Shown here: positions 33,208 to 49,560 of the stretch, piece after piece
Layout: each line of letters starts with the position of its first letter
How positions within the stretch are numbered: position 1 is the stretch's first letter
Assembly: GCF_034044635.1 (NCBI RefSeq)
Contig: NZ_JAXCLX010000002.1
Span: forward strand, 248,001-312,000
Direction: 5' to 3'
Source of the DNA: Dongia rigui
GTDB taxonomy: Bacteria; Pseudomonadota; Alphaproteobacteria; Dongiales; Dongiaceae
Length of the DNA: 64,000 bases
Notes under the pieces: generated by a model
What the model was told of the DNA's origin: nothing
Database searches by the model: none
Seen by the model: only the letters and a program-made list of their open reading frames with translations
Translations under genes and position numbers: made by a program

Positions 33208-33284
33208 GCACCCATAGCTCAATTGGATAGAGCATCTGACTACGAATCAGAAGGTTGGAGGTTCGAGTCCTTCTGGGTGCGCCA
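33208..33284 (+). tRNA. tRNA-Arg (anticodon ACG), integration target
   Basis: A complete 77-nt tRNA: the acceptor GCACCCA pairs fully with TGGGTGC, the D arm is GCTC/GAGC, the anticodon loop is CTACGAA with ACG, the T arm is GGAGG-TTCGAGT-CCTTC and the gene ends in encoded GCCA. Its last 49 nt (anticodon stem to CCA) recur exactly at 49512-49560, so an element has inserted here and restored the gene. Confidence 0.95.
33236..33284 (+). repeat. attL: left 49-bp direct repeat of the integrative element
   Basis: The sequence from CTGACTACGAATCAG to GGGTGCGCCA is identical to 49512-49560. The flanks differ immediately upstream (GAGCAT against ACCACG), and downstream a TTTCC match continues after one mismatch. 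It is the 3' part of the tRNA, the usual crossover site of tyrosine integrases. Confidence 0.93.
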
Positions 33285-33423
33285 CTTTCCAAATCAATAA
33301 CTTAGCTGACATTTTGGGCCAGGTTTTGGCCTGTGCGAATCGCGCCTAGGTAGCGGCCTAGGTAACGCACGATCTGGCGTTGTGGTATGCTGCCGCCGGA
33401 CCGAGAAATTGGGGACGGGCCTT

Positions 33424-34344
33424 ATGCCTTCAGATGTCTGCTACGTCTGCAAGCGCGCTGCACCGAGCGCTGCCCTCTCATTAACTGGCGACATTGAATA
33501 TCACATTCAATGTGCCTATTGCGGAACCTACCGACTCCGGGACTCAGCCTTAAGCCGGCTGGACGGCGCGACGAACGCTGAACGCGGGCGCGTTGCGGAG
33601 TGGATTAGTTCTGCGCAAGGCAGCACCGTGGCGCCAGTGTTAGATGTGGGCACCCTAGACTATGCGCTGTCACGCCCTCGATTTCGATTTTCCGAGCAGC
33701 TGGAAAAGATGCTTGTATCTCTTGCCAAGCGAGAACCGCGGCTCGATTGGGTTGCGCTCAGAGGCGACAGACTCGGGGCTTTTCTTCAAACGATTGAGGA
33801 TAGAGATGTGGACGCTGTGGCGCGCCACCTCGAGCAGCACGGCTGGATGAAGATTGATCCCAGCGGCGGGCGCGGCAAGCTCACTTCAGAAGGGCTGTTG
33901 CAGGGCGAGAAGCTGCTTGGTTCCGCTCCCGACAGCTCTCAGGTCTTTGTGGCAATGTGGTTCTCCGAGGAGATGGAACCGGCGTGGCTCAATGGATTGA
34001 AGAAAGGAATTGAGTTAGCGGGATATGTGCCGTTCCGCGTGAGCCAGCAGGAACACGTGAACAAGATCTGCGACGAAATCATTGCGCAAATCCGCCGGTC
34101 GAAGTTTATCGTAGCGGATTACACAGGGCATCGTGGCGGCGTTTACTATGAAGCTGGCTTTGCAAGTGGTCGCGGCCTGCAGGTCATTCCGACATGTCGC
34201 AAAGATGACATTGAAAAACTGCACTTCGACGTTCGGCAATACAATTGCATCGACTGGACCAGCCCTGAGGAGCTGGCGCAGAGATTGTCGGTACGCATAT
34301 CTGCCGTGATGGGAGACGGTCCGCTTCGGAACCGGCGGACGTAA
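33424..34344 (+). CDS. Zinc-ribbon protein with nucleoside deoxyribosyltransferase/TIR-like C-terminal domain
   Basis: A 306-residue protein from ATG 33424. The N-terminus has two Cys pairs (CYVC at residue 5 and, after about 25 residues, CAYC), suggesting a zinc ribbon. The middle is helical. The C-terminal 130 residues (SSQVFVAMWFSEEMEPAW, then ICDEIIAQIRRSKFIVADYT, GGVYYEAGFASGRGLQVIPT and LHFDVRQYNCIDW) have the alternating fold and Glu-containing motif of nucleoside deoxyribosyltransferase-like/TIR-like domains. Such domains occur in nucleotide-hydrolysing defence effectors. It is cargo at the left end of the element; the function is not proven. Confidence 0.6.
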   Translation: MPSDVCYVCKRAAPSAALSLTGDIEYHIQCAYCGTYRLRDSALSRLDGATNAERGRVAEWISSAQGSTVAPVLDVGTLDYALSRPRFRFSEQLEKMLVSLAKREPRLDWVALRGDRLGAFLQTIEDRDVDAVARHLEQHGWMKIDPSGGRGKLTSEGLLQGEKLLGSAPDSSQVFVAMWFSEEMEPAWLNGLKKGIELAGYVPFRVSQQEHVNKICDEIIAQIRRSKFIVADYTGHRGGVYYEAGFASGRGLQVIPTCRKDDIEKLHFDVRQYNCIDWTSPEELAQRLSVRISAVMGDGPLRNRRT

Positions 34345-34387
34345 CCCACTTCGCCGTGAAGCGGAACGCAGCCATCTTCTCTCGAGC

Positions 34388-34630
34388 CTAGTCGCACCCA
34401 CTCTCAGAGCACCGATCGGTACGAGCATTCTGGCGATCTGGTGACTGGTATGTGCACGCCATCAAGTACCCGTTAGCGTCCTTATCAGTGGCAATGAGTT
34501 GCCAGCCCTGAGCATCTTTGGATTCACACAGTACATAGTAGTGCGGTGGAGCGTCGTCACCGCACGCGGTCAGTCCGGCCCAGAAGATGGTGATCGCGGC
34601 AGCGCGCAAGCTTCGAACTACGCGTCTCAT
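34388..34630 (-). CDS. Small putative lipoprotein
   Basis: An 80-residue protein from ATG 34630, with a basic start (MRRVVRSLRAAAITIFWAGL) and lipobox LTAC. The mature part has four further cysteines (VLCESKDAQGW, YLMACTYQS, DRCSESGCD). GAGAGA lies 7 nt before the ATG. The frame is open upstream for another 49 codons, but that part lacks a signal. I do not recognise a family. It lies in the element's cargo zone, convergent with the zinc-ribbon gene. Confidence 0.5.
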   Translation of the reverse strand: MRRVVRSLRAAAITIFWAGLTACGDDAPPHYYVLCESKDAQGWQLIATDKDANGYLMACTYQSPDRQNARTDRCSESGCD

Positions 34631-34660
34631 ACGTCGATCTCTCGCTGAATCAAAAAAAAC

Positions 34661-34737
34661 GCAACGCGTTGCTAATGCAGCAACGGCGGCCATAAGTTGC
34701 ACATAGGACGATAAACAAAATCCGCATTGCAGTCTAG
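34661..34737 (+). promoter_or_regulatory. Duplicated upstream block, copy 1
   Basis: A perfect 12-bp palindrome GCAACGCGTTGC (34661-34672) is followed by ATAAACAAAA (34711-34720) and, after 11 nt, GTCTAG (34732-34737). The same ATAAACAAAA-N11-GTCTAG spacing occurs before the second paralogue. It lies 55-130 nt upstream of the first small paralogue gene and may be its control region. Confidence 0.45.
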
Positions 34738-34792
34738 CGCACCGCCCGCGCTCTCCCATAATCGCCGCGCCCAACAACCAAGGGAGCGAGCA

Positions 34793-35023
34793 ATGACCAA
34801 GGGACCGAAGACTGTGAAGGTGGCGCTGCCGAGCGGCGGCCCGCTAAATCTGAGCGCCGATGTCGGCCGGCTGTTCATGATGCAGATTGAGATGTATTCG
34901 CGCGGCGGCGTGGACTCGGAATCGCTGGGCCAGAAGATCAACGAGCTACTGAACGAGCTGCCCGACAGGCAACTCAGCCTCGCGAACGCGATAGCGTCGT
35001 CACTCGTCCGCATAACAAAATGA
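34793..35023 (+). CDS. Small helical protein, paralogue A of three
   Basis: A 76-residue protein starting at ATG 34793 after AGGGAGCGAGCA. The core PSGGPLNLSADVGRLFMMQI, then LPDRQLSLANAIASSLVRI, is shared with the two genes that follow (PSGG, LS-D-GRLF, QIE, a basic Q-LA-AIA-SL helix). It is probably all-helical and soluble. No known family is recognised. It is the first of a tandem set of three in the element, with its own upstream block. Confidence 0.6.
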   Translation: MTKGPKTVKVALPSGGPLNLSADVGRLFMMQIEMYSRGGVDSESLGQKINELLNELPDRQLSLANAIASSLVRITK

Positions 35024-35060
35024 AGGAAAATCAGAGCCAACTGTCTCGGTTGTCTCAATA

Positions 35061-35131
35061 CGTTGCTAAAAGCGCAACGCATTTTCGCGATAACTAACTG
35101 AACTATAAACAAAAATTAGCCTCGCGTCTAG
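35061..35131 (+). promoter_or_regulatory. Duplicated upstream block, copy 2
   Basis: An inverted repeat CGTTGC (35061-35066) / GCAACG (35074-35079) is followed by ATAAACAAAA (35105-35114) and, 11 nt later, GTCTAG (35126-35131). This repeats the arrangement before paralogue A, so the duplication included the upstream region. TATAAA at 35104-35109 could be a -10 box, but no good -35 is seen. Confidence 0.45.
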
Positions 35132-35204
35132 ATTTGATGAGACGCCAGGCGCACCTTCATTTCATCGGCGCCCACGGTGGGGGCCATTGATCGGAGGATC
35201 ACCG

Positions 35205-35492
35205 ATGAAACGCTCTGAGATTGCCATTCCATCCGGCGGTAGCCGCGAATTGAGCCCCGACATTGGGCGGCTGTTCCTGCAGCAAATCGAGCTTTGGACC
35301 TTACGAGGTGACGACATTATTCGGAAGGGTCGCGAGGTCGACAGCACGTTCAAGAACATGCCGGCAAAGCAGCGCAGGCTCGCTCACGCGATCGCCCTAT
35401 CCCTGGTGAACCTGCTGGATGCGGAGGCCCAACGTGTACGAACCGTCAAGACGGCGGCGAGCGCCGGCACAGCTGCGCCGGATCTCGCCTGA
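35205..35492 (+). CDS. Small helical protein, paralogue B of three
   Basis: A 95-residue protein from ATG 35205 after GGAGGATCACCG. It shares PSGGSRELSPDIGRLFLQQI and the C-terminal helix KQRRLAHAIALSLVNLLDAE with paralogues A and C. It has a C-terminal extension of about 25 residues, coded in the stretch that overlaps the start of paralogue C. Function unknown; the absence of membrane segments and the basic helix allow a nucleic-acid or partner-binding role. Confidence 0.6.
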   Translation: MKRSEIAIPSGGSRELSPDIGRLFLQQIELWTLRGDDIIRKGREVDSTFKNMPAKQRRLAHAIALSLVNLLDAEAQRVRTVKTAASAGTAAPDLA

Positions 35493-35661
35493 GATAGTCG
35501 ACGTCTTCGCCGCCCACGTGGCTCTCTATACGCGCCGCAGCCCTGACAATGTTGCGGCGCTAGAGCGCGATCGAGATGAGAAGCTTTGCCGGCTTTCCGA
35601 CAAGCAGCGCCAGATCGCGCGCGTCATCGCGTTGTCGCTGCTGAAGTTGTTGGATAGCTAA
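35434..35661 (+). CDS. Small helical protein, paralogue C of three
   Basis: A 75-residue protein from GTG 35434, chosen because GGAGG lies 6 nt upstream; an ATG at 35419 in the same frame would add five residues. It overlaps paralogue B by 59 nt in a different frame. The core ISPEIVDVFAAHVALYTRRS, then SDKQRQIARVIALSLLKLLD, aligns with A and B, though the N-terminal PSGG is replaced by an Arg-rich stretch. The overlap suggests coupled translation of B and C. Confidence 0.55.
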   Translation: MYEPSRRRRAPAQLRRISPEIVDVFAAHVALYTRRSPDNVAALERDRDEKLCRLSDKQRQIARVIALSLLKLLDS

Positions 35662-35775
35662 ATTCCGCATTGCAACCAGCGCGAGGCGCGAAATGTGGCC
35701 CACACGTATTGCTATAGACATCTAAAAATCGCTATGGCAGCCTTCTAACAATCATTTGTTGGAGGGGGAAACAGC

Positions 35776-36810
35776 ATGGCTTTCATCCACGATTATGTTC
35801 CTGTGTTGCGGTGGAAACGAGGCGAACGTGTTGGCATCAGTCACCTCACTGCGACATCTCGAGGGAGAGTCACACCTCTTTTTCAGCTGGCACCCGAAAG
35901 CTATGTTGGCAAGGAGAAAACCGCGAAGCGTGCCGCCGTTCCAGCGCCCGCCGCATTTGCAAATGAACTCAAGGCAGCCTGGGGCACCGCGTCCTTTTAT
36001 CTCGACACCGCCAAACTCGGGTCCGCTGCTGCCGCGGAACTAACTGCAGTCGCGGCGGCCTGCAGCGCCAATTCAATGGAGATGATTCCGATCTCTTATC
36101 TTGATGCTCCGACGGCTTATCAGTCTGCCGTAGCTAAGGTTGCCGCCTCAGATGGGCGCGGCGTCGGCCTTAGGGTCGACTTCGCCCAATTCACAGACGC
36201 GAATAGGTGGGCGAAAGGCTGGCCTCACGCGCTGAGCGCGACAGATCTGATCTTGGACCTCGCTAGCAGCGTTCCTTCGGTAGTCAGCCTCGGCAACCTG
36301 GCCATAGAGGCTTTCAAGAAACTCCACCAGGGTGAAAAATGGCGGACGGTTACATTGATCGGCAGTAGCCTGCCCGAGAATTTCACTGGGTTCGCGAGCG
36401 GGACTCACGAGATCGAAAGAGTCGAGTGGAAGCTCTGGCGCAAATTGAACAAGGCATCACTGCCCTACCAGCTCGATTTCGGAGACTATGCCACTGTTGC
36501 AGTGACTCCCCCGCCGTCAGGGATTCGGTGGGGCTTCCCGATCAATGTGAAATACACATTGGGCGATCACTTCCTCGTCTGCCGTGGAGTAAACACCTCA
36601 GGCTTGGGTGGCGTTGATATGGACGTTCAGCTCATTGATCACGCACGCACAATCACCAAGTACCCGAACCGCACTCCGCTAGCTGACTGCTGGGCTGATG
36701 CCAATATCGATGAGATTGCGGCGAAAAAGAAGCAGCCGGGAAACCTAGAATCTTGGGTGCAGTTTGGCGTCAATCGGCATGTTTCCCTGGTCCGGGATAG
36801 TTTGCCCTAG
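35776..36810 (+). CDS. Beta-family protein
   Basis: A 344-residue protein whose opening FIHDYVPVLRWKRGERVGIS and PLFQLAPESYVGKEK match the group annotated as 'beta family protein', whose members are often encoded beside sce7726-family genes. Later landmarks are FYLDTAKLGS, GVGLRVDFAQF and a C-terminal KYPNRTPLADCW. Its biochemical role is unknown. A strong GGAGGGGGAAACAGC precedes the ATG. Its last 66 nt overlap the 3' end of the convergent sce7726-like gene, so the two form a tight tail-to-tail pair. Confidence 0.7.
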   Translation: MAFIHDYVPVLRWKRGERVGISHLTATSRGRVTPLFQLAPESYVGKEKTAKRAAVPAPAAFANELKAAWGTASFYLDTAKLGSAAAAELTAVAAACSANSMEMIPISYLDAPTAYQSAVAKVAASDGRGVGLRVDFAQFTDANRWAKGWPHALSATDLILDLASSVPSVVSLGNLAIEAFKKLHQGEKWRTVTLIGSSLPENFTGFASGTHEIERVEWKLWRKLNKASLPYQLDFGDYATVAVTPPPSGIRWGFPINVKYTLGDHFLVCRGVNTSGLGGVDMDVQLIDHARTITKYPNRTPLADCWADANIDEIAAKKKQPGNLESWVQFGVNRHVSLVRDSLP

Positions 36811-37365
36811 CCAATTTTGGCGGCGCTTCAGCGCCGCCCGCACATAGTCTAAAAGCTGAGACAGTGGAATCGTGTCCGCCAAGTGCTGATGAATTGCCTT
36901 GATTCTTTTGCTGCGCCAGCCGCTTGCGGAGCCAATCGTTTCCAAGACCGAAAGAGCCTCGTCTTTCCAGAGCAGCTGAGCGACCAAATACGGATCTTGG
37001 CCAGGATTGCGCCGCCCGCGCCGCTTTTGTCGGAGGTGCACGGCGCCGTCTTTCTCGCTGGCTAACAGCACGCCCCACCAGGCTGGCACGGAAGCGACTG
37101 CCTTTTCGGCATGCCGCTTCCCGACGACAAGCGACACTCGATCGAACACTCGGCTGTAGAGATCGGCCTGAAGCGGCAGACGGTCCAATGTGTCCCGATC
37201 ACTCTTGAGCTCATAGCCGGATAGTTCGCCATTTATGACTGCGATGTCTATCCGCACGGAGCCAGACCACACTCCCATTTCTTGGACGATACTTGTGTCG
37301 GTGTCGCCGGAATGGAGATCACGGAGCATGGCAATAGTTGCCCGCCGCACGTCCGAGTCCCGCAT
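36745..37365 (-). CDS. sce7726-family protein with PD-(D/E)xK nuclease-like motif
   Basis: A 206-residue protein. MRDSDVRRATIAMLRDLHSG, then VRIDIAVINGELSGYELKSD, contains the Asp...Glu-x-Lys order of PD-(D/E)xK nucleases, followed by RLPLQADLYSRVFDRVSLVV and ASVPAWWGVLLAS, all typical of the sce7726 family. A GGGGGAG lies 8 nt before the ATG. It is paired convergently with the beta-family gene. A role in nucleic-acid cleavage and defence is inferred from motif and setting. Confidence 0.7.
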   Translation of the reverse strand: MRDSDVRRATIAMLRDLHSGDTDTSIVQEMGVWSGSVRIDIAVINGELSGYELKSDRDTLDRLPLQADLYSRVFDRVSLVVGKRHAEKAVASVPAWWGVLLASEKDGAVHLRQKRRGRRNPGQDPYLVAQLLWKDEALSVLETIGSASGWRSKRIKAIHQHLADTIPLSQLLDYVRAALKRRQNWLGQTIPDQGNMPIDAKLHPRF

Positions 37366-38057: not shown

Positions 38058-38450
38058 ATGCCGGAAGTACGCGACAAGCACGGCGCGCCCAAGCTCTGGG
38101 GGACACTGCGCTGCCTAGTCCCTGGGTGTGGCGCTGAGCGCCTGATCGAGCCGGAACAGGCCGAGCGGCTTGCGCAGCGGCTCTCGGCGGGCATCGGGGT
38201 CCGCTACTATCTCTCGCGCCTCAAATGCCGAAAGTGCGGCTTCAGGAATGCGTCGATCGCCTTTCATCTGGCCTATGCCGGGAAACGGCCCTGGGACGAT
38301 CGCCGCCGGCCTGGCGAGCCGCGGAAGCCGTTTGCGCATGAGGGTGGCGATCCTCAAACTGCCACACCCGACGAAGCGGCCCGGCACAAGGCAATCGGGG
38401 AACTTCCTGTGATTGTCAGAGGGAGCGGAAACCGACGGAAGACTAAGTGA
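38058..38450 (+). CDS. Hypothetical zinc-finger-like protein
   Basis: A 130-residue protein with a CxxxxC pair (RCLVPGCGAERL, residues 19-24) and CRKCGF about 40 residues later, which together could bind zinc. The segment RLKCRKCGFRNASIAFHLAY looks like a mobile-element nucleic-acid-binding finger. The C-terminus is charged and low in order. GGGGAGGCGGT precedes the ATG. I do not recognise the family; it is element cargo. Confidence 0.5.
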   Translation: MPEVRDKHGAPKLWGTLRCLVPGCGAERLIEPEQAERLAQRLSAGIGVRYYLSRLKCRKCGFRNASIAFHLAYAGKRPWDDRRRPGEPRKPFAHEGGDPQTATPDEAARHKAIGELPVIVRGSGNRRKTK

Positions 38451-38614: not shown

Positions 38615-39082
38615 CTACATAGCCACCGCTTTCACCAGCTCGCGAAGTTGTTTTCGAGTGGCGGCATCAATTTTATAGTAGGCCCTTACGAGTTCGAGCG
38701 TCTCGCGCCTAAACATTTCATCGGGCTCCGGTTCGATTTGCTTTAGCTCTGGCGCTTGCATCACCTGGGCGGGCGATTTGGATTTCACGTCGCCGGGAAT
38801 TTCTTCGAAGAACCAAGAAAGAGGCACGTCAAGAACTCGGGCCAGGTCGAACAGCCGGCTGCTGCTGACGCGATTGGCGCCGCGCTCGTATTTCTGCACC
38901 TGCTGGAAAGTGAGCCCGATGGCCTCGCCCAAATCCGTTTGGCTCAACCCGAGCAAGGTTCTTCGTTGGCGGATCCGCTGACCAACGTGGATGTCAATCG
39001 GATTGAAGAAACCCTTGCTGGCCATCCGGCCGGAGGATTTGCGCGGTTTCTTGGCGGACTTCCCTTTCGGGGCCTTACCCAT
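38615..39082 (-). CDS. XRE-family transcriptional regulator
   Basis: A 155-residue protein with a Lys-rich N-terminal tail and a Cro/CI helix-turn-helix at residues 30-90: [38 protein letters not shown], then [22 protein letters not shown]-terminal helical region includes [17 protein letters not shown]. This form is common in alphaproteobacterial chromosomes and prophages. A 13-bp direct repeat directly upstream is a likely binding site, so the gene may repress itself. Confidence 0.85.
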
Positions 39083-39086
39083 ATGT

Positions 39087-39312: not shown

Positions 39313-40929
39313 CTAATTTGCGACAGGCTGGAATGCGTGAGCAAAAACGTAATCTGCGATTTTATTGCCCTGCTCGATTCCTGCGTCAGCGTCGAACTGC
39401 CAATGAATCCCCAGCCAAATCCGACTGCGGCCATTCGCATATTCAGCATGGCTGAACGATACAAATGACTGCGGAAGTTTGGCTCGGGGCTCGGTCCCTC
39501 CGACAGGATAGTTCAATCCATTGTATTCGTCGGACACCAGTACGAACGGTGTCGCGTCGTCCCAAAAATGGCGCAGCATGCCAAATACCGTACCTCCGAA
39601 GACGGCATGGCCCGACGGGTACGCCGGAAACGGCGGCGTGAAATTAGGTCCGCGGGCGTTTGTCGCCGGAGCAGCAAGCGGTAGCCAATTTGGGTCTTGC
39701 TGAGTGTCTGGGTTGCCATCGCGGTCGGCAGCCCGGATCGCGGTAACAGGCCGCCATAGCTGATAATGGTATTTTGCTTCCCAAGCAGATATTGCCGCAT
39801 CCGCCATTGCAGTGTTGACCAGAGCTAAGTACCTCGAAAAATCTGCGACATCCCCCATCCGTTGTTGCAAAGCAACGGTATCCGCGACTTGGTTGTATAG
39901 TCGGGGCGGGGCACAAAGCGCGGGTGTTCCATCGTAAGCCCAGAAATAACCCTCGAACGTCTGATAGTCTCGCCGATCTCCAGCAGCTTCGGCATTCTTT
40001 GCGCCAACTTTCGCCACCTCATTGAACGCCCGAGCGTAGTCTGCGCTGTCTAAGGCAGGAGGAGGCAGCGGGCGAAATTGACTCGCTGACTCGATAACAA
40101 ATGGCCTCACTTTCGACCACTCGGCGCCTAATGCAACTGTGAGCTTGTTTTCCGGATCCGGATCAGGACTCCAAACGCCAGGGCACGGATTTGGAGATAC
40201 ATCGCACTGGTTGGGCACAAATCCTGAACCGTATGCCAGTTCTTTGCGGTCGGCACCGTCATTCAATCGTTTCTGGAGTATAGATTGCGCCGCATCCCTT
40301 CCGAGCTCCTCGCCGGCTTGGAGTTCCTTCTCCAACTTCTCCTTTAGCGTTGCATTACCTGCACCTGAGGGAGGCTTAGGCAAACGGGCAATGTAAACTG
40401 AGAACTGAGAGTCGAGCCGATCTTTCTGGTAGGGATACATTGCCAGAAGCGCGTCATGCGCCGCCTGGCCAATCGCCATCTCGAGAAAAACAGGAGAGGC
40501 TGCCAATGCTGGATCCGACTTTCTAAGTCCAGTGTAGCTCTCATATTTCTGATAAACAGAATTCACCGCCTCAAACATCGCGATGTGCACAATCGCCATT
40601 GCATAGCTTGAGCGATGGGGTCCGATCCGTTCGGCGAACCTACGGGGGTCGTCCCCGGATCCGGGCTCGACCGGCGTGTGATCAAGTGCAGTTGCTTCAA
40701 GAGCAATGTTACTCCAAAGCAACAGTCTCTCCAGTTTTGTTTCTGCGGCCCGCGGGGGCATGAAGCTCTCCAAGCTCAGCGATCGCTGTGTATTTTGCAC
40801 TTCTAACAGCTTCGCAAATTCCGCTTGGTTCTCGGGGCTGAGCGCCGTCTGTGCGAATGCATCGCTCTGCATCGAACAGTACAAGCTGACTGCAATCCCC
40901 ATAATGAGCCACGTCCATCGCCTGGCCAT
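39313..40929 (-). CDS. Secreted vanadium-dependent haloperoxidase / PAP2-type protein
   Basis: A 538-residue protein from ATG 40929 after AAGGGGAG, with a signal peptide ending SDAFA-QTA. The metal/phosphate-binding set is complete: KYHYQLWRPVTAIRA (Lys, Arg) near residue 380, PPFPAYPSGHAVFGGTVFGM (Ser-Gly-His) and GRSRIWLGIHWQFDADAGIE (Arg, His). This is the vanadium haloperoxidase/PAP2 phosphatase fold. The protein is probably periplasmic or exported. It is element cargo; its substrate and benefit are unknown. An AT-rich segment (40980-41060) lies upstream. Confidence 0.82.
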   Translation of the reverse strand: MARRWTWLIMGIAVSLYCSMQSDAFAQTALSPENQAEFAKLLEVQNTQRSLSLESFMPPRAAETKLERLLLWSNIALEATALDHTPVEPGSGDDPRRFAERIGPHRSSYAMAIVHIAMFEAVNSVYQKYESYTGLRKSDPALAASPVFLEMAIGQAAHDALLAMYPYQKDRLDSQFSVYIARLPKPPSGAGNATLKEKLEKELQAGEELGRDAAQSILQKRLNDGADRKELAYGSGFVPNQCDVSPNPCPGVWSPDPDPENKLTVALGAEWSKVRPFVIESASQFRPLPPPALDSADYARAFNEVAKVGAKNAEAAGDRRDYQTFEGYFWAYDGTPALCAPPRLYNQVADTVALQQRMGDVADFSRYLALVNTAMADAAISAWEAKYHYQLWRPVTAIRAADRDGNPDTQQDPNWLPLAAPATNARGPNFTPPFPAYPSGHAVFGGTVFGMLRHFWDDATPFVLVSDEYNGLNYPVGGTEPRAKLPQSFVSFSHAEYANGRSRIWLGIHWQFDADAGIEQGNKIADYVFAHAFQPVAN

Positions 40930-41162
40930 AAGTCGCTCCCCTTGAAAGAAGTGATCTCCACAGCTCAGAGAGTACCAAAATACCATTTCATCAACTAATG
41001 GATTCACACGTTAAGACAGATTAATTTATTAACTATTCGCCTAAAAGGGGAATACACAGTATGGGTTTTTCGGACAGAGGTGTTAGCCGGAGTGCGACTC
41101 CGTCTAGGCAGTTGCGACCCGTCCGGCGCGCCCAAACCGTATTGCCTGGCTCTTGTTTAGCG

Positions 41163-41864: not shown

Positions 41865-42626
41865 CTACGTCGCCGGCTTCAAGTCGGCCGCGTATTCTGC
41901 ATACTCGCCACCGGGCTTGAACTTGCTGCCGTCCCAACCTTCAGCCGGCGTCACCAGGGGCTTGTCTGGCGCATAGTCGGCAAAAATCGCCTGATCAGCC
42001 GGGATCGTCTGCCCCATGCCGGGGAGAAACCCTAGATGATGCAGCACCACGTGGCGCAGCACGCCGAAAGCACGGTCGACCATGCGGTCGAATTCCTTGT
42101 CGCTCATTGTGGGGCCGGCTGAAAGCGCGGTATCCCATGCCTTGCGGACCGCGCCGGCCAAGTCGCGAATATGGTTGTCCACACTCGCGAACGCCTGGAC
42201 CGTCGTTCTGTGAGCGTTGCAGCGCTCGATCGCGGCTTGCTGATCGGCTTGAACTTGGCGCAACGCGCTTTGCCTCACCGCTTCACTGCGCTGCGCTTCG
42301 TCCGTCATTGCCGCTTCGAGGTCGCCCACTTCGGCCGCAAGGATCGTGAACTTTGCCAGGTATCGGGCCAAGCGCTCGAGGTGCGAGACTCCTTCCTTGG
42401 CCAGCACCGCGGCGGCTGCATCGCGTCCTGCAAGGGCGTCGGCGTTGGCTTTGCGCGCCGCCTCAATCTTCGCCGGCAGTTCGGCCTCTGCCTGCAGCAA
42501 TGCGTCATAGATCGTGCCTGGCGATGCGTCGGCGGCTAGCCGCAAAAGGTCGACAAGGTGGCTTTGCGTTGCCGCGTCACTCAGGAGCGGAATTGCAGCA
42601 GTCTTAAGGTCTTGGAGTTTTGCCAT
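41865..42626 (-). CDS. Hypothetical coiled-coil protein of the element
   Basis: A 253-residue, strongly helical protein. Residues 25-150 are Ala/Glu/Gln-rich with heptad spacing (LLQAEAELPAKIEAARKANA, RQSALRQVQADQQAAIERCN). The C-terminal part has LPGMGQTIPADQAIFADYA and ends GEYAEYAADLKPAT. No named family is recognised. It lies in the leftward phage-type block between the 65-aa gene and the GcrA-like gene. Confidence 0.6.
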   Translation of the reverse strand: MAKLQDLKTAAIPLLSDAATQSHLVDLLRLAADASPGTIYDALLQAEAELPAKIEAARKANADALAGRDAAAAVLAKEGVSHLERLARYLAKFTILAAEVGDLEAAMTDEAQRSEAVRQSALRQVQADQQAAIERCNAHRTTVQAFASVDNHIRDLAGAVRKAWDTALSAGPTMSDKEFDRMVDRAFGVLRHVVLHHLGFLPGMGQTIPADQAIFADYAPDKPLVTPAEGWDGSKFKPGGEYAEYAADLKPAT

Positions 42627-42646: not shown

Positions 42647-42844
42647 TCAGGCCGGCGCGTTGCTTGTGACGATCTTCGCCACGATGGCCTCGATCGCATT
42701 GATAACTTGCGGCTTACCGCGCCCGGCAACACCGTTCTTGATCCTGAATTCGAAATCAGCTGTCGGTGCGGATGACGCGCCTACGGTGACAGCGGCAGGG
42801 CTGAGGCCCTTGCCAAGGTTGATTGAGTAAAAAGTATCGGCCAT
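42647..42844 (-). CDS. Small conserved phage-type protein (65 aa)
   Basis: From ATG 42844 the protein reads MADTFYSINLGKGLSPAAVT and continues with VTVGASSAPTADFEFRIKNG, a mixed strand/helix protein. AAAGGG precedes the ATG; the open frame extends 19 codons further upstream with no support. Similar short proteins occur in alphaproteobacterial prophages, but no function is known to me. Confidence 0.55.
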   Translation of the reverse strand: MADTFYSINLGKGLSPAAVTVGASSAPTADFEFRIKNGVAGRGKPQVINAIEAIVAKIVTSNAPA

Positions 42845-42857
42845 GGGGTGCCCTTTC

Positions 42858-43022
42858 TCAGTTGGTTTCGGCGGTGCCGTTGACGAAAGCTTCGTATTCA
42901 CTCGCCCGCTCGGTGATTTGCTTGGGCGTGTGGTCGAAGCGATTCACCAGCTTGAGACACTCAAGCCGGATTTCTTGCTCGGGGGTGAGCGTCGTGGGTC
43001 GTTTGTCGGTTGTTTCAGCCAT
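42858..43022 (-). CDS. Small hypothetical protein (54 aa)
   Basis: A 54-residue frame: MAETTDKRPTTLTPEQEIRL, then ECLKLVNRFDHTPKQITERA and SEYEAFVNGTAETN. It overlaps the 3' end of the preceding gene by 8 nt and ends 13 nt before the next start, as in a packed operon. The sequence is helical and charged. It lies in the element's leftward block. Confidence 0.55.
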   Translation of the reverse strand: MAETTDKRPTTLTPEQEIRLECLKLVNRFDHTPKQITERASEYEAFVNGTAETN

Positions 43023-43779
43023 GGGAAATGCCTTTCTTGGCCAGGAGTTGTTCAGCAGTGAGTGCTAGCGAGCTAATGACATGGGCGTTGCTGCCGGCGC
43101 CCGTGACCGAAAGCATGTCGATAACGCCGGGTGATTTGGCGTCGAGTTCACGGATCAACTGCGCCACGAGTTTGAGCTTTGCCGGCTTGGTGTCGCCCCA
43201 CATGCGGTCCAGCATCGCTTCCTGCCGGTCGCTGTAGGCCTGGCGCTCGGCGTCGCTGGCGTCGCGCCAGGTGGCGAACGTCTTTTCGGCTTGGTGCAAG
43301 ATGCTGTTGCCGATGCTCACGGGGATCTGCGCAGTTTGCAGCCATCCGCGCACCTGCTCCTGCCGTGCCTCCGCTTCCTGCAGTTCTTCCGGGGTGTCAG
43401 TGGGTAGGCCAAACAGGGGCACGCGGTATTCCGCTGGATTGATCGGCTCGTCCGTTTGGCTGTCCGCACCTTCCGGGTGCGCTTGCCGCGACAGGTCTTC
43501 CAGTTCCTTGTTGGCGGCCGGATCGCCAGCGAGGTATTTGGCGACCCACGCTGGATCCTGCTTCAATTGGGCGATGCGCTGTTGCGCTGCCTCGGAGCCG
43601 GTCGGTGCCTCATAGGACGTGCCGGGGTCGGCATAGGCCGTTTGGTGCAGCCGGTTGGACTCTGCGACCACGGCGGCATCACCGGCCAATAGCTTGGCGC
43701 CCCATGCCGGGTCTGATTTGTGAGCTTCAAGCGCGGCCAGGGCGTCAGCCTGGGTATTGGGTGCGATGTTTTCTGTCAT
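43015..43779 (-). CDS. Phage-type protein with internal duplication
   Basis: A 254-residue acidic protein from ATG 43779. Two copies of a 28-residue unit lie near the N-terminus: SDPAWGAKLLAGDAAVVAES and QDPAWVAKYLAGDPAANKEL, each followed by a Leu/Ala-rich tail. The C-terminal half is helical, with RQEAMLDRMWGDTKPAKLKL. It may be a scaffold- or adaptor-like protein, but no family is recognised. A TTG start 6 codons upstream is possible. Confidence 0.55.
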   Translation of the reverse strand: MTENIAPNTQADALAALEAHKSDPAWGAKLLAGDAAVVAESNRLHQTAYADPGTSYEAPTGSEAAQQRIAQLKQDPAWVAKYLAGDPAANKELEDLSRQAHPEGADSQTDEPINPAEYRVPLFGLPTDTPEELQEAEARQEQVRGWLQTAQIPVSIGNSILHQAEKTFATWRDASDAERQAYSDRQEAMLDRMWGDTKPAKLKLVAQLIRELDAKSPGVIDMLSVTGAGSNAHVISSLALTAEQLLAKKGISHG

Positions 43780-43898
43780 GTCGTCATCCAATCTCAAAGG
43801 GTGGGGCGAACGTGTGCGCGAGATTTCGGCTCACGGGCGAGCCTCATAAAAAATTCTGGTCTAGCCCGCTCGAGGGGCCTACATCGCGTCGGCGATTG

Positions 43899-43965: not shown

Positions 43966-43993
43966 TTGCCGATCACCGCTGCAGTCACCGGCA

Positions 43994-44680
43994 TCAGCCT
44001 TTCGCTTTCCGAAGCTGCACCAGCTGGGCAGTTGCATCGGCCATTCGTTTGCTGAGCGTTGGCAGGTCCTTCATTTCCCATGGCCAGTTTGCAGCCCAAC
44101 GCAGCCCGGCCTTGGTGAGGGCGTACCGCGCAGCGATTTCAAGCTCGGGCAGAATCAGAGACGTGCCCGTTCTCTCGGCGGTGTCCGGCCGATACGGCAT
44201 TGCTGCCGCGACCTGCGTCGTTACGTCTTGCAGCTGGCTAAACTTCTCGGCCAGGGCGGCCGCAAGCTGCTCAATCTCAGAGGCGATGCCCTCCCGTTGC
44301 TTTGCCAGGGCTCCTGCGGCATCCCAGCGCCTGGCCCGTTCGGCAGCAGCTTGCGCGGCCGCTGTGACGGCCTCGCCGTCCTTGGCGGCGGCAATCGCGC
44401 TGGCAAGGGCGTCAACGCGCTCCTGGGCCTGTGCCAGGGCGCTGCGGGCCCGGTCGCGGGCTGATCCTGCCGCGGCCTCGTCAGGCGTAAGCTCGGCAGC
44501 CAGGTTTGCCGCTGTGAATTTGGTTTGGGCGGCATCGCGAGCCGTGACGGCTTCGGCGTGGCGCTGGTACAGCCGCTCGACGGGGGTTTGGCCACTCAGA
44601 ATCTCGGCCGCGGTGCCGGCTGCGGCTTCGGCGATCTTGCCAGCGGTGGTGCCCAACAGGCGGGCGAGGGAATTTTTCAT
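43994..44680 (-). CDS. Ala-rich coiled-coil protein of the element
   Basis: A 228-residue protein, mostly helical and Ala-rich between residues 40 and 165 (SALAQAQERVDALASAIAAA, REGIASEIEQLAAALAEKFS), with a short C-terminal globular part containing LRWAANWPWEMKDLPTLSK. There is no signal or membrane segment. It is the first gene after the primase and iteron cluster in the leftward block. The family is unknown. Confidence 0.55.
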   Translation of the reverse strand: MKNSLARLLGTTAGKIAEAAAGTAAEILSGQTPVERLYQRHAEAVTARDAAQTKFTAANLAAELTPDEAAAGSARDRARSALAQAQERVDALASAIAAAKDGEAVTAAAQAAAERARRWDAAGALAKQREGIASEIEQLAAALAEKFSQLQDVTTQVAAAMPYRPDTAERTGTSLILPELEIAARYALTKAGLRWAANWPWEMKDLPTLSKRMADATAQLVQLRKAKG

Positions 44681-45112
44681 GGGGTGATGCCTTTCTTTTC
44701 ATGTTCGCTACCTAACCAGCTACCTAGGAAATCGGGAGCAGCACGCGGCGGTGAATTAATCGGCGGAATTCTGCGGAAAAATCCGCGCTGAAATTTCTGA
44801 TCAATTGTCAGGAGGTGAGCGGGGCGGGGTGTCTCGGCCCGGCGCAGCGATCGGCGGGCGCGGCGGCGCGTCACGCGTGCGAGCGATGCGCCCCCGGATA
44901 CCTGCTGTATCGGCCAAGGGCTGTTTGATGAGTTTTGAAAAGCAGGGTCGTGGCGTAGCGGACATCCCCTATAGGGATGTGTCCGCTTTGTCCGCCCCGT
45001 ATGACCGGCGGACATTTGCGGGCATGTCCGCCGTTTGTCCGCTTTGTCCGCTCCTGAATTCCCACGTGTTATCAAAGCGATAGCACTGGCGACGGTTTGT
45101 CCGCTGCAGGGC
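44681..45112. repeat. Iteron-like TGTCCGC cluster, candidate replication origin
   Basis: In this 432-nt gap past the primase gene, TGTCCGC occurs eight times between 44958 and 45104: forward at 44980, 44989, 45025, 45036, 45045 and 45098, and reversed at 44958 and 45008. Two more lie in the end of the primase gene (reversed 45161, forward 45176). Two pairs are 9 bp apart start to start, extending to TTTGTCCGC. The left end forms a nested inverted repeat around CATCCC-CTATA-GGGATG. In satellites and plasmids such repeats bind the replication initiator. No gene is supported here. Confidence 0.65.
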
Positions 45113-47095
45113 TTAACCGAGAACAAGCGCATGGTCGCCCTCGTCCTTGATCCAGCCCATGCGGACAAGCTCATTTGTCCGCCTTCTGAACTCCCTTTGG
45201 CCGCTTGATTCACGGCCCCGATAATTCCGGGAGACGAATTCAGCCCGCCACTCATGGACCGCAATCCGGGCCGGTTCGCCCGGTTCTGCCCTACCTAAAG
45301 TCAGGTTTTGGGCCGCTTCCAGTAGCTTCGCGGTACTGGTTCCGGCCTTGGGTGTCTCACGCTCAAATTCCCGGCCGCGGTCCGGGACGGTGACGGCAGA
45401 CGTGACCGGGCGCCCTTTGGCATCGGTGCCGATTTCGACCGTCTCAATTTGGAAATGGAATTTTGCGCCCGTCTCACCGTCGCGTTGCTTCTCGATCGTG
45501 ACGGCCGAATTCTTAATTTCCAGGGAGGTGTCGACGGCGCCCATAAGCGAGCTATGGCCGCGCGCGCCTTTGGATGCATCCTTGCCAAGATGATGGATTA
45601 CCAGGACCGCGGCGCCGGTCTCACGCTTGATGCGACCTAAGCTGGCGATAACGGCGCCCATGTCTTCCGCGCTGTTTTCGGCGCCGCCGGCCATGATCTG
45701 GTTCAGGGTGTCGATCACAATCAAGCGCAGGGGGTGGCCGGTGCGCTCCGGCAATTCCAGGGCCGCCGTAATCAAGGCTGACACATCGTCGGCGCTGCTG
45801 CGCAGATTGGCGCCGTCCTCGATCGCCGCGAAAGGAATGTCAGTGCCGGCGAGCTCGTCAAATTGGCGCCGGGCCTCGAGGCGGTTGGCGAGCATGCCTT
45901 CCGCGCTGAAATAGAGCACCGAGCCCTGAAGGGTGTCCCGGCCATGCCATGGAATTCCGCGGGCGATGGCAAATGCCATTTCTACCGCGTTGAGTGTCTT
46001 GGCCTTGCCCGGCTCGGCAATGAAAACGACCAGGCCGCCGGCCGGCAACACCCCATCGATCACCCAAAGCATATCCAGCTTGGGGGCTATGTCGCCAAGT
46101 AGCCGCGCCTTGAAGCGCCGCTTGCCCGTGGTCGCATTGCCGGCGGCGGGCGCCTCGCTGGGGGCCGCCTTCTCAGGGGTCTCGATCTTGCTGAAGATGA
46201 CCTCGGGGGCCGACGATCCCGGATCCTCGAAACCATATATAAAAGCGTGGTTGACCTTATCCTGCAGTTCCGCGGCGTCCCATGGCGGCGAACACCTAAG
46301 GTTCCATTCGGCCATAAGCAGATCAACGGTGTCGTCTTTCCCAACACCGAAATCTTTCATCCGCGCCGCCACCTTGAACGTGGTGAGGTCGCCACCTTGT
46401 CCTTCGACAGCCAACGGCGCGTGTGACCGTAGATAATCGGTTGCACGAGATAGAGCACGGGCTCGGTCGATGTTGGCAGGGGGCGCCGTTTCGGCGTCCG
46501 CGGCCTTGGTCTTGGCTTGGCCGCAGCGGGCAATGAGCCATTCGGGCGCAGGCGCCACGGGATCGGAAGATATGACCTTGTACGCCTTGCCGTCGATCAC
46601 GGAACCACAGGCTACAACGTACCCACCATAGGACCGATGATCGACCCCGTCGCCCAAGCGTTCCACGCCTTGCCTGACAGGCTGGCCGACGCGGTAGAAC
46701 AGATGGCGGCCACCTGTTGGCGTTTCTGTTACGAGCGTCCTGGGAAGCTCCAGGCCCTCGGCTTCCCATTGCGCGATCGTAGCGGAGCCGTTCTTACCAT
46801 CCTTGTTATCTTCATCGACAACTAGGAGCGCATCAAATCCGCCATCCGCCCGCACGTCGCCAAATTTGCCGGTATAGATTCCAATGTTGTAGTCGGGGTT
46901 CTCCGCCCACCACGCCTTGATCTGGTCAGGATCACGGGTCGCCAGCTCCTTGAACTTCATTCCTTTAAGCGGCGTCTTCCCTGGCTTGCGGCCAAGGGGC
47001 CACGGCAGCAACGGAAAGACGTGAAATTCATTTTGCGCCAGCGTCTGGGCAAATTCGAGCTTGGGCAGCACCGCGCCCCCGGATGAATCCGCCAT
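45113..47095 (-). CDS. Primase-helicase (PrimPol N-terminal, RepA-like ATPase C-terminal)
   Basis: A 660-residue replication protein. Residues 10-190 form a bifunctional primase/polymerase domain: KPGKTPLKGMKFKELATRDP, NIGIYTGKFGD, ALLVVDEDNKDG and PTGGRHLFYRV. Residues 330-560 form a RepA/RecA-like helicase with a degenerate Walker A, FIAEPGKAKTLNAVEMAFAI (near 358), Walker B LIVIDTLNQIM (near 461) and VIHHLGKDASKGARGHSSLM. The last 60 residues look like a winged helix. It probably initiates and primes element replication at the adjacent iteron cluster. Confidence 0.82.
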   Translation of the reverse strand: MADSSGGAVLPKLEFAQTLAQNEFHVFPLLPWPLGRKPGKTPLKGMKFKELATRDPDQIKAWWAENPDYNIGIYTGKFGDVRADGGFDALLVVDEDNKDGKNGSATIAQWEAEGLELPRTLVTETPTGGRHLFYRVGQPVRQGVERLGDGVDHRSYGGYVVACGSVIDGKAYKVISSDPVAPAPEWLIARCGQAKTKAADAETAPPANIDRARALSRATDYLRSHAPLAVEGQGGDLTTFKVAARMKDFGVGKDDTVDLLMAEWNLRCSPPWDAAELQDKVNHAFIYGFEDPGSSAPEVIFSKIETPEKAAPSEAPAAGNATTGKRRFKARLLGDIAPKLDMLWVIDGVLPAGGLVVFIAEPGKAKTLNAVEMAFAIARGIPWHGRDTLQGSVLYFSAEGMLANRLEARRQFDELAGTDIPFAAIEDGANLRSSADDVSALITAALELPERTGHPLRLIVIDTLNQIMAGGAENSAEDMGAVIASLGRIKRETGAAVLVIHHLGKDASKGARGHSSLMGAVDTSLEIKNSAVTIEKQRDGETGAKFHFQIETVEIGTDAKGRPVTSAVTVPDRGREFERETPKAGTSTAKLLEAAQNLTLGRAEPGEPARIAVHEWRAEFVSRNYRGRESSGQREFRRRTNELVRMGWIKDEGDHALVLG

Positions 47096-47541
47096 CAGCG
47101 GGCACCCGCCAACCGCTCAAACCAAAACTCGATATCGAGCCAGCTACCTTCAGGCAGCGGGTTCCAGGCGGCCCCTTTTCCGTACCAAAGGATGTTCCTT
47201 TCCGTCAGCTGTTGGGCGAGCTGTTTGAATTCGTCGCTTTCAAGCTGGTCCATGCTGAAGGCGCCGAGCTTGCCCGCGGCTTCGTCTTCCGCCATCTCGA
47301 TAAGAGTCGGCGTTGCCGGCCGCATCGGTGCCCAGCCTTCCGACCAGAATTCGATATGTAAACGCAGGTCGCCGCGATCGATGCTTAGGCGTGCCCGATC
47401 GGGATTCTCCGGGCTCACCGTGCAGATGACGCCTGGGACGTTAACGGGATAGCCATGAGGTAGTGGGTCGAAAATGTCGACGACGAATCTCGCAACAGCC
47501 ACTGTCGAAGCGCACTGATAGACGTCAGAGAGAGTCTTCAT
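47095..47541 (-). CDS. Hypothetical element protein upstream of the primase
   Basis: A 148-residue acidic protein. It includes VVDIFDPLPHGYPVNVPGVI, LHIEFWSEGWAPMRPATP and ILWYGKGAAWNPLPEGSWLD, with no named domain. Its stop overlaps the primase ATG, and its start overlaps the alpA-like stop by 4 nt, so the three genes form a coupled operon. A replication or regulatory accessory role is inferred from position only. Confidence 0.6.
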   Translation of the reverse strand: MKTLSDVYQCASTVAVARFVVDIFDPLPHGYPVNVPGVICTVSPENPDRARLSIDRGDLRLHIEFWSEGWAPMRPATPTLIEMAEDEAAGKLGAFSMDQLESDEFKQLAQQLTERNILWYGKGAAWNPLPEGSWLDIEFWFERLAGAR

Positions 47542-47729
47542 GCCGCACCTCGCTCAGCCTTGCGGGCTTCAAGCCAGGCGGCGATTTCGTCGGCATCCCA
47601 TGCGACAGTGCGTTCGGCAATCCGAACACGTCGGGGAAAGCGGTTCGCCTTCTCAAGCCGCCAAAGTTGGGCGCGGGACAGACGAATGCCCAGAACTTTC
47701 AAATCAGCGGCGGCCAGCAACTTCGCCAT
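47538..47729 (-). CDS. AlpA-like helix-turn-helix regulator
   Basis: A 63-residue winged-helix protein: ADLKVLGIRLSRAQLWRLEK, then ANRFPRRVRIAERTVAWDAD and EIAAWLEARKAERG. The sequence RxQLWRLEKANRFPRRVRI is the MerR-like AlpA/excisionase signature. Proteins of this type activate P4-like and PICI-like elements. AGGAGGACTCCGCT precedes the ATG. It leads the coupled replication operon. Confidence 0.85.
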   Translation of the reverse strand: MAKLLAAADLKVLGIRLSRAQLWRLEKANRFPRRVRIAERTVAWDADEIAAWLEARKAERGAA

Positions 47730-47774
47730 AGCGGAGTCCTCCTGATGACAGGCGGACCAGCATTGGCGCGCCTG

Positions 47775-47819
47775 CGATTATCGGTGCGGGTTCATCAGTG
47801 CAAATCGGTGCATATCGGT
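47775..47819 (-). promoter_or_regulatory. Predicted alpA-operon promoter overlapped by GCACCGAT repeats
   Basis: On the minus strand, TTGCAC (47803-47798) and TAATCG (47780-47775) are spaced 17 bp. Two copies of GCACCGAT (47787-47780 and 47811-47804) lie 24 bp apart, one within the promoter spacer and one just upstream of the -35, with a partial third (ACCGAT, 47819-47814). They are candidate operator sites. Confidence 0.5.
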
Positions 47820-47997
47820 TTCTTTCAGAGCAGCCATGGCCACGCGCGCAATGCCGGGCGGGTTCACTCCTACAGCGATTCAGGTTGAGCTACGTTTGCC
47901 CATCACGAACCGTGCGGTCGCATTCTACTAATTGGCGTGTCGCTACGCAATATGTTGCAAGGATTGCAACAGGTTACGAGTCATTTCGCTATGTAAA

Positions 47998-49353
47998 TCA
48001 ATGCGGCAGGGTCGCCGAATCGAATGTCGACGCTAGCGGAAGGGCGCTTTTAGCAGGCACACTTTCCAGTGTCGTTTTGATAGCCGTCGAAAGTCTCTCA
48101 AACGCGTCCCGCATTTCCGTCACGTATGCATGACGATCGTAAATGCCTTCGACGCCTGGGATCACATGACCCAAGCACCTTTCGCTTGTGAAACGGTCGA
48201 CGCCAACGGCACGCATCATCGTCTTGGCGGTGCGCCGGCAGTCGTGCAGTGTCCAGCCGGGCAGGGGAGCGGCGCTCCTGTCGGCCTTTAGGCGGGCCCC
48301 TTGAATCAGATTGTCCAGGGTTGCTTTCTTCTGGCTGAACGCCTGGAAGTGGGTTTCGCCATCGGTCGAGAACACGTAAGGGCACTTGCCAATCCGTTTG
48401 TCGCGCTGGGCTTTGATGATGGCAGCCGCGGCCGAAGACAGGGGCATGACCAGCGGCTCACCGGTCTTGGCGCCGGTCTTGTGATCTTCCGCCGGGATCG
48501 TCCACAACGGCCCGCCGGCTGATTCTAGATCCAAGTCCTTCCATCGCATGGCGAAGACGTTGTTACGGCGCTGTGCGGTCAAGAGCAGCAGCTTGATGCC
48601 GGGCCCAAGCGCGAGAAGTTGGGGTTCATCTAGTTGGGTCCAGATCTGCCGAAGCTCATCCGCTTCCAAGACGCGCTTCCGTTCCGATCGGTGTCCGCTG
48701 GCCATGTCGCGCACGATCGGAGAATTGAACTCATCTTCGCGAGCTGCGTACCAGTTGAACAGCTTCCGCACGGCGGCAAGCACCCGGTCCGCCATGATGG
48801 CGCCATTGTTCTCGGTCACATCGTCGAGCAGGGCGACAACGTCGCTGCGCTTTATGTCGGCAATCGGTAGCTTGCCCCACTCGGGCGAGCAATAGACCCG
48901 GAAGATGCGACCGGTTTCTTTGAGGTGTCGTGGACCGATCTTCGCTTTGAGCGGGTATAGTCGTAGGAAGTCAGCCGACACGGTGTCAAAGGTCGCGGCA
49001 CGCCGCTTGGCCGTGCGGCGGTTTACAGCGTCTGCCGTTTCTTTTGGATCTTCCCCCCGGTCGATAGCTTTACGGAGTTCCGCTGCGTGCGCCCGAGCGT
49101 CGCTCAAGCTCATCCCGCCTTCGTCCTTCGAGAGTGCCGCCCGCCCGATGGTGAAGCGCGCCGCCAACTTCCGGCCGCCGCGGGCAACCCGGGCTAGGTA
49201 GAACCAGGACGCCACGCCGTTGGAGGAGTAGCGCAGGCCAAAGCCGGGGTTAGTTTCGTCGAAGTAATCCACCTGGACCACGGCGCCGGTGGGCGAGGGG
49301 GCTGGCGCCTTAAGTGCGCGCAACTTGAGCGGAGCAAAGGACACACGGGGCAT
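47998..49353 (-). CDS. Tyrosine-type integrase, P4-like
   Basis: A 451-residue recombinase. The N-terminal arm-binding domain reads NPGFGLRYSSNGVASWFYLA, followed by a core-binding helical domain. The catalytic residues are Arg in LTAQRRNNVFAMRWKDLD (near residue 259), His-x-x-Arg in GWTLHDCRRTAKTMM (near 368), His in CLGHVIPG and the nucleophile Tyr in IYDRHAYV (near 403). It lies about 160 nt from attR. It should catalyse integration at the tRNA-Arg 3' end. Confidence 0.93.
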   Translation of the reverse strand: MPRVSFAPLKLRALKAPAPSPTGAVVQVDYFDETNPGFGLRYSSNGVASWFYLARVARGGRKLAARFTIGRAALSKDEGGMSLSDARAHAAELRKAIDRGEDPKETADAVNRRTAKRRAATFDTVSADFLRLYPLKAKIGPRHLKETGRIFRVYCSPEWGKLPIADIKRSDVVALLDDVTENNGAIMADRVLAAVRKLFNWYAAREDEFNSPIVRDMASGHRSERKRVLEADELRQIWTQLDEPQLLALGPGIKLLLLTAQRRNNVFAMRWKDLDLESAGGPLWTIPAEDHKTGAKTGEPLVMPLSSAAAAIIKAQRDKRIGKCPYVFSTDGETHFQAFSQKKATLDNLIQGARLKADRSAAPLPGWTLHDCRRTAKTMMRAVGVDRFTSERCLGHVIPGVEGIYDRHAYVTEMRDAFERLSTAIKTTLESVPAKSALPLASTFDSATLPH

Positions 49354-49511
49354 GTTGAGCCTCCAAGGTAGCGTCTAGGTAGCTTCTGGCTCGCAATCAT
49401 ATGCTACCTTCTGAAACTCCACGCAAGAGGTACTGCAGAGAAGTGCCGATAATAGGCCGTTTAATCGCTGTCGGATGAACTGACCCGCAACGCTATGAAA
49501 CGATAACCACG

Positions 49512-49560
49512 CTGACTACGAATCAGAAGGTTGGAGGTTCGAGTCCTTCTGGGTGCGCCA
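49512..49560 (+). repeat. attR: right 49-bp direct repeat of the integrative element
   Basis: This is identical to 33236-33284, the 3' 49 nt of tRNA-Arg including GCCA. It lacks the 5' half of a tRNA, so it is not a gene. It marks the chromosome-element junction beside the integrase. Confidence 0.93.

Follow-up and report, generated by a model that had tools for sequence, protein, structure and literature searches.

Within a stretch of 64,000 nucleotides from Dongia rigui (NZ_JAXCLX010000002.1, positions 248,001 to 312,000 of the forward strand; hereafter the window, within which coordinates are numbered unless another locus is named), we identified a genomic island of 16,276 bp in a gene for tRNA-Arg(ACG). 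Sequence evidence supports well its reading as an alphaproteobacterial island of the satellite type within tRNA-Arg: the gene set and the attachment (att) repeats fit, one relative lacks the island at this site, and other tRNA genes house related islands of about the same size. We think it probable that the island is a phage satellite resembling the phage-inducible chromosomal islands (PICIs), with packaging directed by its own terminase small subunit (TerS), and that it may reshape the capsid of a helper phage. In other words, an element with its own genes for integration, copying, and the choice of DNA for packaging, and with no recognizable shell or tail genes, probably travels in the particles of another phage.

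The tRNA-Arg(ACG) gene that serves as integration site lies at 33208-33284 on the plus strand (ARAGORN; Rfam RF00005). Repeat comparison placed one att repeat at 33236-33290, on the tRNA side, and the other at 49512-49566, on the integrase side, 16,276 bp away. The 2 copies agree at 54 of 55 positions, and their exact stretch of 49 bp, which copies the 3′ part of the tRNA gene and is far above chance, bears out the identical 49-bp bounding repeats claimed in the original prediction for this DNA. The island has a G+C content of 59.2%, against 63.2% for the remaining window. Its core genes all lie on the minus strand, in the order tyrosine integrase (47998-49353; Arm-DNA-bind_3 and Phage_integrase domains, PF00589 at 6.7e-10 and phrog_1 at 6.1e-44), AlpA-like regulator or excisionase (47538-47729; PF05930, 6.6e-12), a 148-aa protein without a family in Pfam, PHROGs, or a further scan (47095-47541), a Prim-Pol and AAA_25 primase-helicase (PrimPol; 45113-47095; PF09250 at 1.9e-32, AAA_25 at 6.1e-32), a 228-aa coiled-coil-like protein (43994-44680), a 260-aa open reading frame (ORF; 43015-43797, or 254 aa from an ATG at 43779), 3 unassigned proteins, and TerS (41163-41657; Terminase_2 PF03592 at 2.8e-12, phrog_51 at 7.1e-20). 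The 4 functions named in the original prediction (integrase, AlpA-like regulator, primase-helicase, and TerS) were thus all recovered by Pfam and PHROG matches. Directly past the primase stop codon, a repeat scan found repeated TGTCCGC units (44978-45105) that are candidate origin iterons; comparable TGTCCG or GGGACA repeats are present in 2 related loci (L016 and L026). The unassigned proteins comprise an 84-aa protein without a family in Pfam or PHROGs (42647-42901), a 253-aa protein without a Pfam or PHROG family above cutoff and without a match among the families tested by profile comparison (41865-42626), and a 67-aa protein with a weak resemblance, under the cutoff, to the GcrA C-terminus (41654-41857; PF07750, 2.8e-4).

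Scanning all 20 island ORFs against Pfam and PHROGs, we found no significant match to capsid, portal, tail, lysis, or large-terminase families. The virion-type matches below significance were to Phage_portal within TerS (0.019, under the cutoff) and to the major head protein family phrog_10 in the 253-aa protein (0.13). The claim that the island holds no virion or large-terminase genes therefore stands for recognized families; it does not extend to the 260-aa and 228-aa proteins, which lack a Pfam family and are distant homologs of proteins from a podovirus late gene cluster, so that it is valid only for recognizable virion genes.

For the comparison with relatives at the integration site, we picked the genome (G004) with the strongest right-flank match among 7 genomes of the genus, apart from the window's own. 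Its left flank is 84% identical to window positions 25406-33307 and reaches an intact tRNA-Arg gene, and the match restarts in the right flank at 49631 with 79% identity. The island is missing there, and approximately 0.8 kb of other sequence separates tRNA and flank, versus 64 bp in the window; the relative lacking the island at tRNA-Arg that the original prediction proposed to look for thus exists within the genus. A tRNA-Arg gene is present in 16 of 17 genomes at the order level, and within approximately 1.5 kb on either side of the tRNA-Arg copies, contig permitting, 2 integrase queries matched the window's own locus only. The island integrase was also matched in none of 5 longer tRNA-Arg stretches (one each in G001, G002, where it spans 3.8 kb only, and G003, and 2 in G006). 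The original prediction had named a full prophage at these repeats in most relatives as the finding that would overturn it. No such prophage was seen: 9 virion queries gave no match in these 5 stretches, at tRNA-Arg copies or fragments of 4 relatives, a result from few genomes and with queries of limited reach, since they also missed the divergent large terminase of a related island (L150) that PHROGs did find. In G006 the tRNA-Arg site holds other genes. Elsewhere in that genome, contig C40 has an isolated tRNA-Arg fragment of 61 bp (L146:14549-14609); close to it are an XRE gene 66% identical to that of the island, a neighbor similar to the island's 130-aa protein, and a different integrase; the fragment is perhaps a trace of another element at the same site.

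Related islands were found in other tRNA genes. At a threshold of 1e-100, the primase had no match in 385 genomes of the class other than in the window's own, while a three-row primase alignment at 1e-60 matched 5 of them, own genome included, and a pattern scan of genome contigs from 84,980 species yielded 68 loci. Query A1 was found in no viral contig and, among the 385 class genomes, only in the window's own. The 2 nearest relatives both reside in Rhodospirillaceae bacterium SYSU D60014 (G016; QOZR01 contigs 25 and 6): one of 15,058 bp runs from a tRNA-Met gene to a partial copy of it, and one of 16,261 bp runs from a tRNA-Thr gene to its copy. Like the window island, both carry the integrase at the end far from the intact tRNA, and they share with it a PrimPol (37-42% identity) and the 260-aa family. 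The tRNA-Met island additionally carries the 228-aa family, TerS, and a large terminase. In the tRNA-Thr island, a 312-aa coiled coil was considered as a relative of the 228-aa protein or its homolog p216 (see below) and is not clearly one (probability 1.4 and 15.5). More distant islands include those of Bradyrhizobium sp. BR 10289 (12,573 bp, tRNA-Lys; integrase, TerS, Prim-Pol and helicase as separate genes, and a 642-aa protein that matches tail-fiber, head-decoration, and virion-structural PHROGs at its N-terminus), and of alphaproteobacterium G138 (13,506 bp, tRNA-Lys; integrase, PrimPol, TerS, large terminase, and the 228-aa family at 1.4e-15), which breaks the usual geometry in that its integrase adjoins the intact tRNA. 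Islands with paired tRNA repeats in Phyllobacterium endophyticum (11,528 bp) and in a Salinarimonas metagenome-assembled genome (7,871 bp) yielded integrase and primase. Capsid, portal, tail, and scaffold profiles derived from the resident cluster described below and from its relatives matched nothing in these related islands. Two alphaproteobacterial islands have tail-fiber-like or virion-type genes (L080:15312-17240 and L016:4867-6372), which gives the impression of satellites that supply receptor-binding proteins of their own. Two others, of 13.5-15 kb, hold both small and large terminase genes (L026:11657-13572 and L150:9531-13886), and the capsid and portal profiles tried there matched nothing.

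The 260-aa protein has no Pfam family, a single PHROG at 0.11, and one weak phage match of the whole protein by tblastn (E 0.02). In that phage, podovirus MW202898, the matching gene (UOF83095) has the head-to-tail connecting gene on one side and the major capsid gene on the other. Residues 48-109 of the 260-aa protein align with the C-terminal tail of UOF83095, and a weaker second copy precedes them. Searched alone, this 52-aa tail motif reached E 6e-4 over 50,697 phage records; this search was chosen after the alignment had been seen, and the remaining 13 of 14 records had E values of 2 or more. Several Pelagibacter phages have relatives of UOF83095 under the label capsid assembly protein, and elsewhere the label is putative protease, coil-containing, or hypothetical. 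In 7 further records the gene ahead of them is a head-tail connector or adaptor, and they precede the major capsid gene where that is labeled (6 of 7); where portal and major capsid genes both carry labels, the relatives lie between the two. Comparing profiles, the body of the 260-aa protein matched scaffold bodies at probability 62 (E 7.7e-5), and its best partner was p175, a protein of a podovirus-type cluster elsewhere in the same genome (probability 89, E 2.2e-6; 2.7 or less for 11 other families; best of 40 column shuffles E 0.036). A hidden Markov model (HMM) of p175 in turn found the 260-aa protein at 9.9e-8 among the ORFs of 7 islands or loci. Both p175 (3.2e-22) and the cluster's scaffold (4.3e-37) match phrog_3742. 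The scaffold link of the 260-aa protein is one that passes through p175 and the tail motif, and by sequence and profile homology the protein belongs to the phage capsid-scaffold superfamily. AlphaFold models (pLDDT 66 and 69) predict 2 three-helix units, followed by a helical body. The 228-aa protein, whose family also occurs in L026 and L150, is a distant relative of p216, the neighbor of p175 (hhalign E 3e-4, best of 40 shuffles 0.034; HMM 0.0027). The satellite and the virion cluster therefore have an adjacent gene pair in common.

Searching the genome for large terminases (phrog_2) led to one place, the cluster at G000 C1:2405153-2421925 (L025, L109). It encodes a repressor-like helix-turn-helix (HTH) protein, large terminase, portal or head-tail adaptor (phrog_332), scaffold, major head protein (phrog_3437), tail protein (phrog_376), p175, p216, and a T7-like fiber; p175 and p216 sit just before the tail fiber, and the p216 frame overlaps the end of p175. 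The fiber of the SYSU D60014 tRNA-Thr island is homologous to that of the cluster (31% over 321 columns). The island integrase and primase had no match in the 71 kb around the cluster. When island DNA was compared with the cluster region, only short matches appeared, the best at E 0.081, and the island proteins had no tblastn match there at 0.1. The cluster is syntenic, beside cysD/cysN-like genes, in 3 other species of the genus (G001, G002, and G006), and no stop codons were seen in its aligned genes. In these genomes, the ratio of nonsynonymous to synonymous substitution rates (dN/dS) was 0.06-0.14 for the capsid gene, 0.08-0.21 for the portal gene (2 genomes), and up to 0.41 for other cluster genes, versus 0.105-0.142 for cysN; against the more divergent G007 and G003, it rose to 0.87 near saturation. 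The capsid gene occurs in 6 of the 17 order genomes, those without it including G004, G005, and G016. The cluster is thus under purifying selection, which suggests a domesticated locus resembling a gene transfer agent (GTA); 3 GTA groups with established genetics are covered in PMC9662315. In G002 (L118:7237-8034), p175 and p216 are fused into a single reading frame that lacks a portion of p175 between them.

Taken as a satellite, the island might work as follows. The integrase would place the island in the 3′ part of tRNA-Arg(ACG) without loss to the tRNA gene. Excision or induction is probably set off by AlpA, as may be expected from its family and from a Gram-negative PICI that is activated by AlpA (PMC6092414), and the PrimPol-AAA enzyme probably replicates the island from the iteron-like TGTCCGC repeats beside its own gene. 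By analogy with the TerS-redirected packaging described for the Staphylococcus aureus pathogenicity islands (SaPIs; PMC6092414), TerS would redirect the large terminase of a helper phage to satellite DNA. The 260-aa protein, with the 228-aa protein as coiled-coil partner, may then join the assembly of the helper capsid, giving heads plausibly sized for about 15-16 kb; CpmB, an alternative internal scaffold, provides a precedent (PMC10945586), and we regard the chances of capsid remodeling here as about even. Defense-like and other cargo fills the tRNA-proximal half. The resident cluster is one possible helper. A stronger version, in which the helper is this vertically inherited, GTA-like locus of the bacterium itself and the satellite's TerS and its versions of p175 and p216 hijack particles meant for host DNA, strikes us as very doubtful.

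Several results weigh against a TerS-packaged, capsid-reshaping satellite. TerS was found at 1e-4 in only 3 of 72 surveyed PrimPol-related loci besides the window, many of them on short contigs. These are L026, L080, and L097 (part of G138), with L085 weaker at 5.6e-4; L026 and L080 served as seeds of the TerS profile, having first been found by the window TerS alone (2.3e-11 and 3.1e-6), and a scan of genome contigs with the single TerS sequence found nothing. Over its whole length, the SYSU D60014 tRNA-Thr island has no TerS match. Viral contigs, the longest of about 45 kb, also contain relatives of the PrimPol, so that this gene is not specific to satellites. As for the capsid, the direct comparison with scaffold bodies fell to probability 35 (E 4e-4) when 4 more scaffolds were added, the scaffold HMM alone did not find the 260-aa protein at 0.01, BLAST against the resident cluster's own scaffold gave no match, and Foldseek found nothing significant in the viral and PDB libraries with the models, which are of moderate quality. 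In addition, p175 adjoins the tail fiber and not the capsid gene, which leaves the scaffold role uncertain. This last point also bears on the function of the pair within a satellite: the 260-aa and 228-aa proteins could serve a tail or ejection step, or host takeover, rather than capsid scaffolding, a proposal that is compatible with the satellite reading and that we rate as a serious one, at somewhat less than an even chance. The position of their homologs directly before the cluster's fiber and the homologous T7-like fiber in the tRNA-Thr island speak for it, while the superfamily that p175 and the relatives of the 260-aa protein share with proteins in scaffold position (phrog_3742), and the scaffold tail motif that the window protein itself bears, speak against it.

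Two further explanations would deny that the island is a functional satellite at all. The island could be a decayed, podovirus-like temperate prophage, now inert and stripped of its structural genes, given that TerS, the scaffold-superfamily protein, and the PrimPol all have phage relatives, and that among 81 IMG/VR loci with PrimPol relatives, 10 have T7-like fiber homologs (at 35-45% primase identity), while a large terminase is present in 6 and a portal homolog in 2. We nevertheless find this unlikely: the core genes are open frames, the 5 tRNA-Arg stretches lacked matches to the limited-reach virion queries, and the islands in other tRNA genes keep the size class and core genes while the capsid, portal, and tail profiles tested miss them, their like size and layout making a single recent prophage deletion improbable. 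Alternatively, a non-viral integrative element or defense island, with plasmid-like replication and an acquired TerS-like DNA-binding protein, might use another route of transfer. The helicase part does resemble plasmid proteins annotated as RepA-family, about half of the island is cargo that includes defense-like genes, and the 253-aa protein has a match to Mobilization_B at 0.015, under the cutoff. Yet no conjugation or relaxase family was found above the Pfam cutoff in the 20 ORFs, and TerS scores above its cutoff, recurs in related islands, and has a large terminase nearby in L026 and L150; this explanation we hold to be highly improbable.

The cargo that makes up the tRNA-proximal half, about half of the island, begins next to TerS with a PAP2/vanadium-haloperoxidase-like protein (39313-41007, minus strand; PF01569, 1.1e-8) and an XRE-type HTH regulator (38615-39082, minus strand; PF01381 at 1.7e-15, phrog_8 at 8e-14), followed by a 130-aa protein without a Pfam or PHROG family (38058-38450, plus strand), an sce7726-family protein (36745-37365, minus strand; NF033832 at 8.1e-48, PADLOC model ‘cll’ at 1.7e-31), and a Beta_protein family member (35776-36810, plus strand; PF14350 at 2.9e-52, PADLOC PD-Lambda-2_C model at 1.8e-22). 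Sequence comparison identified 3 tandem paralogous small ORFs on the plus strand at 34727-35661 (34727-35023, 35187-35492, and 35419-35661), and closest to the tRNA lies a protein with a C-terminal TIR-effector-like region (33382-34344, plus strand; PADLOC 1.3e-10, phrog_16139 of unknown function 3.1e-37). A promoter scan was at chance level, and terminator-like sites exceeded those in shuffles (29 versus 17.4). In another genome (G075; L151:2967-10260), an integrase-primase element has Cas3, Cas4-Cas1, and Cas2 genes next to it, along with an array whose repeats are about 36 bp long.

Most of the satellites studied in depth belong to hosts among the Firmicutes, Enterobacterales, and Vibrionaceae. 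In the titles and abstract openings that we found, largely outside subscription journals and preprints, there were no alphaproteobacterial satellites with the features described here. Alphaproteobacterial islands with TerS and a scaffold-superfamily gene, some with large-terminase or tail-fiber genes, would extend satellites to another class, and the set would allow capsid control by a satellite's own genes to be tested against a podovirus background, with the resident structural cluster as a candidate helper in the same cell. The new parts are the scaffold-superfamily pair and its link to that cluster. Measured against the description of PICIs in PMC6092414, the island has the integrase, replication module, and master regulator, and its 16,276 bp are slightly above the typical size of around 12-15 kb. 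On the PICI trait of an att site never occupied by prophages, the 5 stretches that gave no virion match can give no more than a hint, given the few genomes and limited query reach noted above. The capsid, portal, and head-tail genes that define capsid-forming PICIs are not found in it. Of the helper-using alphaproteobacterial satellite originally predicted, the satellite anatomy (genes, att repeats, G004 without the island, and related islands) thus holds up, while the absence of virion genes is weakened and PICI membership as defined is incomplete; we therefore call the island PICI-like by anatomy, formal membership of the PICI family not being established from sequence.

The Gram-negative PICIs of the EcCICFT073 type are alike in island size, in carrying int, AlpA, and primase, and in being without recognized capsid, tail, or lysis genes (PMC6092414). 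Unlike them, the Dongia island has TerS, whereas proteobacterial PICIs use Rpp acting on the helper TerS (PMC10690885), and it carries a scaffold-superfamily gene. With SaPIs that encode TerS and CpmB, it shares an own TerS for packaging choice (PMC6092414) and a potential counterpart of the CpmB internal scaffold (PMC10945586); it differs in its host phylum, its AlpA-type regulator, and its PrimPol-AAA replication. Capsid-forming PICIs and the Streptomyces Mulch/Flayer systems are also satellites with some virion genes (PMC10690885), but no capsid, portal, or head-tail genes were recognized in the Dongia island; MiniFlayer carries a tail fiber (PMC10690885), as the relatives L027 and L080 do or may do likewise. 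Closest are the SYSU D60014 islands: the tRNA-Met one differs in having a large terminase, and the tRNA-Thr one in its T7-like fiber and missing TerS match, but both resemble the Dongia island in their PrimPol, the 260-aa family, the integrase far from the intact tRNA, and a size of 15-16 kb.

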